Positions 25,696-51,844 of a DNA stretch of 64,000 nt are shown piece after piece (the stretch's first letter is position 1; each line of letters starts with the position of its first letter). Location of the stretch: positions 496,001-560,000 of the forward strand of contig NZ_FOZK01000003.1 of the NCBI RefSeq assembly GCF_900114435.1, written 5' to 3'. The DNA comes from Halomicrobium zhouii. Its GTDB lineage: Archaea; Halobacteriota; Halobacteria; Halobacteriales; Haloarculaceae. Below the pieces are notes generated by a model. It saw nothing but the letters and a program-made list of their open reading frames with translations, was not told the DNA's origin and ran no database searches. The translations under genes were made by a program, and so were the position numbers.

Positions 25696-26434
25696 CGGCC
25701 TCACCTCCGGACTCGGGGCCCGTTTCGCCATCGGCCGGACGGTCGGATTCGCTCTCTTCGCCATCGGCCGGACGGTCGGATTCGCTCTCTTCGTCATCGG
25801 CCTGACGGTCGGATTCGCCCGCCTCCGCCGGCGGGGTGTCGGGCCCGCCCCCGGCCTGTTGGAGGACGGGGTGGGTCTGGTCGGGCGGGTAGACGGCGAA
25901 GTCCGGCGCGGGGTCGCCCGGCGACAGATCCTCGTCGAAGATGGTCAGCGCGTAGTCCTCCCAGTTTCTGATGGGCCGAACGATCGCCTCGGGGTCGCGG
26001 CCGTCGATGACGTGGACGTACAGCGCGTTCTCGGACTCGTCGTAGTCCAGCGTTATCGTCCCGGGCGTGATGGTGATGCTGTTGGCGATGGTGGTCACAC
26101 CGAGGTCTGTCCGGACCCGGAGGGGGATGAGGATGACCTCCGGTTCGATGGGCTGGGACGGCGCGAGGACGCGGTACGTGACGTCGATGTTACCGACGAC
26201 GACCTCTCTGGTGAACAGGCTTACGTACAGGAACACGTACGGGATCGACCGCAGCGTCCGCCGGAGGTCGATCCCCTCGCTATAGAGCCGCCTGAACACG
26301 AACGCGATCGGCATCCCGACGACGAGGCCGAAGAGGAACTGCCCGAGCATCGGGTCCGGCGAGAGGGGGGCGCCCCGGACGAACACCCAGAGGACGCCGA
26401 ACAGTACGCCGGCGACCGGCCAGCGGCGCGTCAC
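25685..26434 (-). CDS. mnhE: Mrp Na+/H+ antiporter subunit E with extended repetitive tail
   Basis: A 249-residue subunit. Membrane part: VAGVLFGVLWVFVRG, MLGQFLFGLVVGMPIAFVF and IPYVFLYVSLFTREVVVGNIDVTYRVL, then the soluble MnhE domain (VRTDLGVTTIANSITITPGTITLDY, LYVHVIDGRD). Typical MnhE is about 160-200 residues; here the last 60 are an acidic low-complexity tail with an 11-residue repeat (ESDRPADGEES) made by a 33-base tandem repeat. The GTG at 26434 overlaps the mnhD stop by 4 bases (GTGA). Confidence 0.93.
   Translation of the reverse strand: MTRRWPVAGVLFGVLWVFVRGAPLSPDPMLGQFLFGLVVGMPIAFVFRRLYSEGIDLRRTLRSIPYVFLYVSLFTREVVVGNIDVTYRVLAPSQPIEPEVILIPLRVRTDLGVTTIANSITITPGTITLDYDESENALYVHVIDGRDPEAIVRPIRNWEDYALTIFDEDLSPGDPAPDFAVYPPDQTHPVLQQAGGGPDTPPAEAGESDRQADDEESESDRPADGEESESDRPADGETGPESGGEADGR
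25725..25819. repeat. 33-base tandem repeat inside mnhE
   Basis: Units at 25725-25757 and 25758-25790 are identical, and a partial third with two changes follows from 25791 to 25819. They encode the acidic repeats of the MnhE C-terminal tail. The repeat keeps the reading frame (33 = 11 codons) and looks like recent slippage or unequal exchange. Confidence 0.9.
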
Positions 26435-49651: not shown

Positions 49652-51844
49652 ATGAACGTCATACTCCAGCAACCGTCGTCCGTCCTCGTCGTCAGCGAGA
49701 ACGTGGAGACGGTAGCGACGGTTCGAACGGCACTCGCCGACGCGTCCGATACCACCGTCCGACACGAACCAGACCCCGGCGACGCACTCGATACGTTCGT
49801 GGACCTCGACGAAATCGGCTGCGTCGTCCTCGACGAGAGCGTGCCCGACGTCGCCTCCTTCCGGACTGAACTCGCCGAGCGGGACGATCTCCTGCCGGTC
49901 GTGTACCTCGCTCCCGAGGCCGACCGAGCGCTGCTCAGTCGCCTCTCGCGGTTCGAGTCCACGACGTACCTCCCGCGCCCGGTCGCCGAGTCGGTACTGC
50001 GAAAGGTACTCGAGGAGTCACGAGAGCGCTACTACCGAAAGCGCGTGACCGCCGAAGAGAGCGACATGCTGCGGGCGTTCACCTCGGAGCTCGAGATCCC
50101 CGTCTTCGTCAAGGACGAGGCGGGCCGCCACCTTCGAATGACGGACGTCCCGGGCGGCGCCGACCAGGACGCCATCGTCGGCAAGACCGACCGCGAGGTG
50201 TACAGCTACGACCCGGAGGCCGCCGCCGAGTTCTACGCCGACGACATGCGCGTCGTCGAGCAGGGAGTTTCGATACACCAGCAGGACGAGGCGTCCGGCC
50301 CCCCGGGGAACCGACACTGGACGCGCGTCAGCAAGGTTCCCTGGCCAGCCGACGACGGGTCGAACAAGGGACTGATCGGCGTCGCGATGGACGTCACGGA
50401 CCTCAAGGAGATGGAACGCCGCGCCGAACAGTTGCGCGAGCGCCTCGAACAGTTCGCGAGCTACATCAGTCACGACCTGCAGAACCCTCTCAACCTCGCC
50501 AGCGGCCACCTGGAGATGGCCAGAGAGGACGGGGACGAGGACGCCCTCGATACCGCCGCGGCGGCCCTCGACCGCGTCGACGAGATGCTCACCGACCTGG
50601 ACCACCTCGCCCGCCAGCCGCCGCGAGCCGGAGGCGGGGAGTACGTCGAGGTCCCGTTCGTCGCCCGACAGCTCTGGTCGTTCGTCGCGACCGAGGACGC
50701 CGAACTGGTCGTAGAGATGCCCGAACCCACCCGCATCAGGGCGCCCGCACGGGAACTGCGGCCGTTGCTCGAGAACCTCCTCAGGAACGCCGTGGAGCAT
50801 AGCTCCACGAGCCCTCCTTCGCACGCTCGGGAGGACGCCGCCGGACGACAGCCGTCCGGCGAGCCCGCTGTCGCTGACGCTCCAGCGGACGCCGTGGAGC
50901 ATAGCTCCACGAGCCCTCCCTCGCACGCTCGGGAGGACGCCGCCGGACGACAGCCGTCCGGCGAGCCCTCTGTCGCTGACGCTCCAGAGGACGCCGTCGA
51001 ACACGGCAGCGCCGACGTCACCGTCCGGGTCGGCGCCCTCGACGACGGGTTCTACGTGGGCGACGACGGGCCCGGCATCCCGCCGTCGGAGCGGGAGACG
51101 GTCCTCCAGCGGGGGTACACGACGGCCGAGGACGGGAGCGGAACCGGGCTCGCACTGGTCGCGGAGGTCGCCGAGCGGAACGGCTGGTCGATACGGATAA
51201 CCGAGAGTGCCGACGGCGGCGCCAGGTTCGAGTTTCGCGACGCCCTCGTCGTTACGGAGCCCGAGAGCGCACACCAGACCGGCCCCAGCATTCGCCTCAC
51301 CGAGGAATCGGCCGTCCCCGGCGGCGACGTCGCTGGGAGTGCAGATTACGATCCGAGTTCCGATACGTGGACGGTCCGGTGCGACACGGCCGGGGAGACT
51401 GGACCGCGGTCCTGCTACGTCGCCCACGCCGTGACTGACGGCTCGGTCCGGATCCAGGCCCGACTGCGGACCGTCGACCACGTCCACGACAGGAGCAGCG
51501 CCGGCCTGTGGATGGGCGACGGTCTCGGTGAGACAGACGCGTTCGGGTCCATCGGGCGCACGGTCGGCGGGCAGACGGAACTCGTCTACCGGCCCGAACC
51601 CGGTGGCGACCTCGCGCGGACGGTGCTGGTCGAGAACGAGCCCCACGAGTGGTTCCGCCTGGAACGCACCGGGGAGACACTCACCTGTTCCGTCTCCGTC
51701 GACGGGACGGACTGGGTGGCCCTCGACCAGCGACGGGTCGCACTCGCGGACCCGGTGCGTCCCAGCCTCGCCGTCTCCAGCGCCGTCCCCGGTGACCCGT
51801 GCGAAGCGACGTTCTCGACGGTCAGAACCTACGAGCTGGAGTGA
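49652..51844 (+). CDS. Receiver-PAS histidine kinase with repeat insertion and C-terminal sandwich
   Basis: A 730-residue soluble kinase. Receiver-like domain (about 10-120; possible phospho-acceptor Asp61, but the usual Lys is Arg in YLPRPV), PAS domain with bound-ligand potential (145-250), HisKA with His274 (FASYISHDLQNPLN), HATPase with N-box ENLLRNAVEH (about 374-383), G1 DDGPGIPP and G2 GTGLALVAEV. Two 34-residue repeats are inserted exactly at the N-box. After the kinase, about 545-730 forms a DUF1349/concanavalin-like beta sandwich (GLWMGDGLGETDAFGSI; CSVSVDGTDWVAL), unusual for a kinase. The last 16 bases overlap the convergent MBL gene. Confidence 0.9.
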   Translation: MNVILQQPSSVLVVSENVETVATVRTALADASDTTVRHEPDPGDALDTFVDLDEIGCVVLDESVPDVASFRTELAERDDLLPVVYLAPEADRALLSRLSRFESTTYLPRPVAESVLRKVLEESRERYYRKRVTAEESDMLRAFTSELEIPVFVKDEAGRHLRMTDVPGGADQDAIVGKTDREVYSYDPEAAAEFYADDMRVVEQGVSIHQQDEASGPPGNRHWTRVSKVPWPADDGSNKGLIGVAMDVTDLKEMERRAEQLRERLEQFASYISHDLQNPLNLASGHLEMAREDGDEDALDTAAAALDRVDEMLTDLDHLARQPPRAGGGEYVEVPFVARQLWSFVATEDAELVVEMPEPTRIRAPARELRPLLENLLRNAVEHSSTSPPSHAREDAAGRQPSGEPAVADAPADAVEHSSTSPPSHAREDAAGRQPSGEPSVADAPEDAVEHGSADVTVRVGALDDGFYVGDDGPGIPPSERETVLQRGYTTAEDGSGTGLALVAEVAERNGWSIRITESADGGARFEFRDALVVTEPESAHQTGPSIRLTEESAVPGGDVAGSADYDPSSDTWTVRCDTAGETGPRSCYVAHAVTDGSVRIQARLRTVDHVHDRSSAGLWMGDGLGETDAFGSIGRTVGGQTELVYRPEPGGDLARTVLVENEPHEWFRLERTGETLTCSVSVDGTDWVALDQRRVALADPVRPSLAVSSAVPGDPCEATFSTVRTYELE
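50789..50992 (+). repeat. Two in-frame 102-base palindromic repeats in kinase gene
   Basis: Units 50789-50890 and 50891-50992 differ at three or four bases. Each unit carries two perfect hairpins: CGTGGAGC/GCTCCACG (arms of 8, loop of 3; 50791-50809) and CGCCGGACG/CGTCCGGCG (arms of 9, loop of 5; 50839-50861), repeated 102 bases on. Each encodes 34 residues, beginning AVEHSSTSPPS, and re-creates the AVEH flank found after the second unit, so the insertion duplicates the N-box border and keeps the frame. It has the look of a protein-coding mobile palindrome. Confidence 0.9.

Follow-up and report, generated by a model that had tools for sequence, protein, structure and literature searches.

The histidine kinase gene at positions 49652 to 51844 of the window carries an in-frame array of short, palindromic units directly after its N-box. 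Here the window is the whole 64,000-nucleotide stretch of Halomicrobium zhouii DNA that was analysed. The insert is almost certainly a coding hairpin element. As a whole, it is probably best explained as an array of a dispersed, non-autonomous DNA element of haloarchaea that spreads via the word ACGCCG by template switching. Within this explanation, ACGCCG is very likely the insertion site, and there is about an even chance that a template switch rather than a transposase is responsible for the movement. The features of the gene and its array are as follows.

49652..51844, plus strand: host gene, PAS-HisKA-HATPase histidine kinase of 730 aa, no stop across the array.
50787..50990, plus strand: in-frame array, 48+54+48+54 nt, 68 codons, directly after the N-box ENLLRNA.
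50787..50834, plus strand: unit 1 (48 nt), with ACGC, stem 1 (50791-50798/50802-50809), AGC (50810-50812) and stem 2 (50813-50818/50829-50834, 1 mismatch).
50835..50888, plus strand: unit 2 (54 nt), with ACGC, stem 1 (50839-50847/50853-50861, 9 bp), AGC (50862-50864) and stem 2 (50865-50870/50883-50888).
50889..50936, plus strand: unit 3 (48 nt), of the unit-1 type, with a perfect stem 2, CCTCCC/GGGAGG.
50937..50990, plus strand: unit 4 (54 nt), of the unit-2 type, with stem 2 CCTCTG/CAGAGG.
50991..51006, plus strand: putative original N-box DNA, ACGCCGTCGAACACGG, the target word, now 3' of the array (from the sequence and by analogy with the empty sites in GltX and MBL genes).

The array at 50787-50990 is the strongest tandem array of the window (TRF score 401) and the only site of the element within it. 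Two 102-base repeats with perfect hairpins of 8 and 9 bases had been described here by a sequence-only reading. Both are real, and the direct repeats (50787-50888 and 50889-50990) are 97% identical. However, the earlier coordinates were off by 2, and the repeating unit proves to be 48 or 54 nt long and occurs four times. Each 102-nt repeat holds one unit of each length, and the 204-nt insert thus has four units with two hairpins each. The perfect hairpins are CGTGGAGC/GCTCCACG (8 bp) and CGCCGGACG/CGTCCGGCG (9 bp). A second hairpin of 6 bp, which had been missed, is found in every half-unit (CCTCCC/GGGAGG, CCGCTG/CAGCGG, and CCTCTG/CAGAGG). The array folds better than dinucleotide shuffles of it (z = -5.4, 0/200 shuffles as good). 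As had been claimed, the reading frame is kept, and the 730-aa kinase reads through the array. The 54-nt unit is the DNA of the 48-nt unit with longer loops. Translation of its second half is in a different frame, and the original frame returns before the unit ends. The AVEH border, described as re-created by each 102-base unit, recurs once per 102 nt, and what recurs at every border of the 48- and 54-nt units is the DNA word ACGCCG. What was likened to a target duplication is seen as insertion of whole units beside an ACGCCG that was already present. In the closest relative, the ortholog of the kinase (L205) is 92% identical and has a different unit content. Elsewhere in the same gene, the C-terminal region past the ATPase domain (window 51280-51841, about 190 residues) is strand-rich and has no Pfam match. 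Another gene region of the window (25724-25818) contains a short tandem array of a 33-nt unit (x2.9, 96% match).

All copies of the element have a common grammar, ACGC-(CG N6 loop N6' CG)-AGC-(CC N4 loop N4' GG)-ACGC. The stem sequences vary freely among the copies and yet stay complementary. Covariation was explored with 56 distinct 52-nt units picked by similarity to one reference sequence; a set selected by pairing was left out to avoid circularity. In these units, 94.1% of the pair cells have a standard pair, versus 30-43% in slid controls. A total of 125 pair cells were changed on both sides, and the observed pairing was reached by 0 of 500 shuffles. Adjacent units within arrays give a similar picture: of 242 pairs that changed, 133 have changed in both arms with pairing preserved (0-2 in slid controls), and the stems diverge more than loops and linkers (0.225 vs 0.156 per site). 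Copies that have remained in place can be followed at one MBL site that is shared by seven orthologous copies. Here, pairwise comparison of the stems found 18 single and 0 double changes, and the arms thus drift independently once they are in place. Therefore, joint change of the arms seems to go with copying or exchange and not with later selection. This comes from one clean orthologous set (MBL), and the CbiE copies are mixed, with 20 single and 17 double changes. In several N-box arrays (L217, L229, L366, L214, L033, and L218), stem 2 is replaced by an alternative hairpin, for example GCCGGAC-aga-GTCCGGC or ATCGGACTGC-tcc-GCAGTCCGAT, with peptides such as VEHGSTSSRTESGDS.

Empty and filled sites can indicate where the element enters. 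In the GltX gene of one genome of the genus Halobacterium, the sequence is CCGA-ACGCCG-[42 nt]-ACGCCG-CCGAC, an insert of exactly 48 nt. All 12 of the 12 congeners are empty and have CCGA-ACGCCG-ACGAC or a near variant. Similarly, the filled gene for an MBL-rhodanese hydrolase of Haloarcula is exactly 48 nt longer, with the extra DNA next to ACGCCG, and many congeners lack it. At G000:C4:169663, a gene has its insert at TACGCCG, and several of its homologues keep TACGCCG without an insert. CbiE, the cobalt-precorrin-7 methyltransferase, has 0 units in most Natrialbaceae-type genomes and 1, 2, 3, or 4 in others. MenB of the window's own genome has about 54 extra nt, which are lacking in the closest relative and another congener and are present in three further congeners. 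These comparisons are between species, and gain is not always separable from loss through recombination between ACGCCG repeats, as with the patchy MenB insert. Each strand has the word ACGCCG about once in 490 nt, so that at least two inserts would be unlikely to fall on it by random siting. It flanks both ends of the element and is present in the empty site, although it also belongs to the unit itself. The GltX unit is found at an identical position in Natrialba and in the genus Halobacterium, two families apart (L377, L395, and L059). This could be a hot spot, a transfer, or a convergent insertion.

The element is dispersed in haloarchaea. A covariance model built from 35 units has 107 matches at about 70 sites in the window's own genome, where unit 3 of the array (50889..50936) has the top score, 74 bits. 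There are 117 and 122 matches in two congeners, and 18 of the 20 genomes in the set of relatives are positive. At E <= 1e-6, matches are present in 40 of 53 sampled Halobacteriales genomes and in none of 242 other genomes of the same phylum. With the array as the blastn query, 149 of 391 haloarchaeal genomes have matches. The sites in the window's own genome are mostly intergenic, as judged by the lack of a single coding-signal frame through both flanks under a weak codon model. A search of viral contigs with the exact pattern gave no match, and the plasmids searched gave one weak match, in an MBL gene of Natronorubrum daqingense.

Two further kinds of intergenic repeat were seen. The first is a second dispersed repeat of about 200 bp (CCTCGCCCTTTCAGTCCACC ... 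GCACAGCACCGCAGCCCTGCCCTTCCC), whose ends carry a related pair of hairpins and which sometimes forms inverted pairs (G000:C1:348376, 676284, 1035091, 1390000, and 1531323; C2:26901, 72107, 122673, 603062, and 676571). The other consists of 57-nt units, mostly arrayed, that lie within a MITE-like element with inverted ends of about 18 bp, TGATAGTGGTAGTTGTAA / TTACAACTACTACTATCA. There are six such arrays (G000:C1:379615, 426804, and 1269951; C2:145153; C4:9543; C6:132129; loci L164, L123, L163, L168, L120, and L127). These terminal inverted repeats surround the six 57-nt arrays and are absent from most copies and from every coding copy seen.

In coding regions, the main niche of the array's subtype is the N-box of kinases, encoded by AACGCCGTCGAACAC. 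N-boxes account for 71 of 109 places similar to the query by an automatic rule and for about 82 after reading by eye, a share inflated by a query that was itself the N-box form. A targeting of kinase N-boxes had been proposed from this one gene. It is indeed the commonest coding site, but it is not exclusive, since most copies of the element lie between genes and others are found in about a dozen unrelated genes. Besides the N-box kinases, the in-frame hosts include GltX (in two families), LeuRS, MenB, CbiE, MBL hydrolases (at several positions), a VLRF1-type protein, and unnamed proteins. The repeat is therefore not restricted to one gene. Its hairpins are conserved between copies through compensatory change, and not by slow divergence without hairpin conservation. 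The dispersed copies and in-frame insertions bear out the proposal of a protein-coding palindromic DNA element in an archaeon, like those of Rickettsia.

The usual N-box DNA, AACGCCGTCGAACACGG, contains ACGCCG and matches the 5' arm of stem 1, and therefore an insertion rebuilds NAVEH. Of 122 cases within genes, 97 have ACGCCG in the phase xAC-GCC-G, and translation then follows the AVEHGSTSPPSQARED frame. The peptide of this frame is hydrophilic, acidic, and the least hydrophobic of the six, and the frame is always open; the other frames are Arg-rich or hydrophobic. A loop next to the ATP lid had been suggested, but in a structure model the insert (pLDDT about 36-49) follows the N-box helix (pLDDT about 90) and precedes the next strand. 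The inserted peptide is thus predicted to be disordered and to sit in the helix-strand turn after the N-box. In our view, the protein loop is nearly neutral, and the simplest reading of the peptide is a by-product that is tolerated. Elements in antisense orientation are also present in genes. One extends the C-terminus of TrpC in frame, just before trpB (G000:C2:1071671, L129), and two are in frame in kinases of one subfamily, in different turns of the ATPase domain (G000:C1:853362, L173, and C2:1231500, L133).

A possible route for the spread of the element can be outlined. Its hairpins may matter as folded DNA during copying. A nascent strand at the ACGCCG of a target gene could jump to the ACGCCG of an array, copy one or more units, and jump back. 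Both ends of the element are ACGCCG, so that it would spread as whole units. Fold-back within a hairpin would copy one arm onto the other, and both arms would change at once. The N-box may be favored because AACGCCGTCGAACAC includes the target word and then goes on as the 5' arm of stem 1, because the codon phase is mostly harmless, and because the turn tolerates a disordered loop. Conversion among the many kinase paralogues probably spread the element further. A template switch is suggested by the insertion of whole units, the identical end words, the mixed hairpins on fixed linkers, and the lack of a matching transposase. A stronger form of this explanation would be a self-templating haloarchaeal hairpin parasite without a transposase. 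It would enter any ACGCCG by template switch in whole units and rewrite both arms at each copying, its fold and linkers and not its sequence would be inherited, and the codon phase of the target word would make it safe for genes. We consider this stronger form rather unlikely.

The paired stems could also be those of a structured RNA, with hairpins selected in an mRNA or small RNA for stability, termination, or RNase recognition. The strong covariation and the many intergenic copies fit with this. However, a hairpin in the mRNA would tolerate G.U and not A.C, and on the coding strand of 177 units A.C is the commoner mispair (98 cells, versus 45 cells of G.U). Thus, the coding-strand RNA is not what is constrained, and the mispair pattern argues for structure at the DNA level over the mRNA level, although an antisense RNA would tolerate A.C. 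No Rfam family was matched in a scan of 14 loci, and the uncompensated drift of the arms in the orthologous MBL copies also speaks against selection on an RNA, which we find improbable. Less probable still is a tandem repeat at the protein level only, a kinase loop that replication slippage has lengthened and that is retained or tolerated as a disordered linker. The number of units does vary among arrays, and the peptide is in frame and hydrophilic. Yet the same DNA is found in unrelated genes and between genes, empty sites are present, and the DNA arms covary. As a sole explanation, slippage is refuted by the insertions outside kinases; it may still account for changes in array length.

Within the kinases, insertion might have had no part, and the element would then owe its spread to transfer and to gene conversion among paralogous N-boxes. 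Most coding copies do share one N-box position across many paralogues, whose flanking DNA is conserved, and a stretch with 90% identity recurs in different kinases of the window and locus L032. This leaves the copies in GltX, MBL, CbiE, MenB, and LeuRS unexplained, where only ACGCCG is shared, and we hold it to be possible but somewhat doubtful. A transposase acting in trans on the same element is nearly as likely as a template switch. It could be a hairpin-recognizing HUH enzyme (of the IS200/IS605 or REP/RAYT kind) that inserts 3' of a short word, or the transposase of the MITE. Insertion of whole units beside ACGCCG fits a transposase equally well. An IS200/IS605 insertion would be expected to leave hairpins whose feet are conserved, with a fixed target word on one side and the same word at the end of the element, and the hairpins of the array with their fixed words resemble this expected product. 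The six arrays in the MITE-like element, with their inverted ends TGATAGTGGTAGTTGTAA, indicate that transposition can at least carry units. However, these ends are lacking at most copies. Y1 transposases (PF01797) were found in 12 of the 20 relatives and are lacking in genomes with 64 (81% complete), 28, and 23 copies of the element. Among the 20 relatives, no correlation was found between Y1 presence and copy number. The Y1 genes that were found are of ordinary IS200 size, and the stems are so variable that a transposase could recognize shape only.

To our knowledge, coding palindromes have hitherto been a curiosity of Rickettsia, Wolbachia, and one methanogen. The haloarchaeal element adds a culturable archaeal class with exact empty sites, a target word, and copy differences between close relatives, so that movement is directly testable (Haloferax, Haloarcula, and Halobacterium). 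It offers a clear case in which essential enzymes and signalling proteins have gained disordered segments from selfish or neutral DNA. It is also a warning to annotators that haloarchaeal kinases, GltX, MenB, and CbiE carry inserts that are not homologous. In the open-licence literature, including a census of archaeal two-component systems (PMC5847659), no description of the haloarchaeal element or of N-box inserts was found, and the sequences of the inserted peptides matched nothing in the full-text literature.

The closest known systems are the Rickettsia palindromic elements (RPE), which are found in frame in many unrelated housekeeping genes and also between genes, with a tolerated peptide (Ogata et al., 2000/2002; PMC2229807). 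They are long stem-loops of 105-146 bp with no known target duplication (PMC2229807). Compared by description, both are short palindromic DNA in frame in unrelated genes and between genes, the haloarchaeal intergenic call resting on a weak codon model. The haloarchaeal units differ: they measure 48-57 nt, carry two hairpins each with hypervariable covarying stems, enter exactly at ACGCCG, form tandem arrays, prefer the N-box, and occur in a class of archaea. Palindromic repeats with coding potential are also attributed to Methanocaldococcus jannaschii (FEBS Lett 2005, as cited in PMC2996958). As far as that citation describes them, they are likewise coding palindromes in an archaeon, but one of a different phylum.

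Among other repeats, the GTAG- and CGTC-tagged REPs are small hairpins with alternative complementary stems and many copies, some of them in genes (Di Nocera et al., 2013; PMC3733652). RPE-4 and RPE-6 of R. conorii fall in the CGTC class, whose stems start with A-T pairs, and G.T pairs are common in the GTAG class (PMC3733652). The haloarchaeal units have no GTAG tag, their first stem pair is C-G and not A-T, they have two hairpins, and G.T is rare. PARCEL repeats are tandem, palindromic, and protein-coding and have spread between genomes; they are amphipathic and often in surface proteins, and the paper that describes them reports none in archaea (PMC2996958). The tandem palindromic coding repeats are alike, whereas the haloarchaeal inserts are disordered loops in cytoplasmic proteins. 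In the mitochondria of Nematomorpha, genes contain inverted repeats with arms that are kept complementary, and template switching has been proposed (PMC6649704). The complementary arms are shared with these coding palindromes; dispersed insertion with a target word is not. Thus, the haloarchaeal element has the same behavior as known mobile coding palindromes and differs from them in its anatomy, with a target word, tandem arrays, and hypervariable paired stems.
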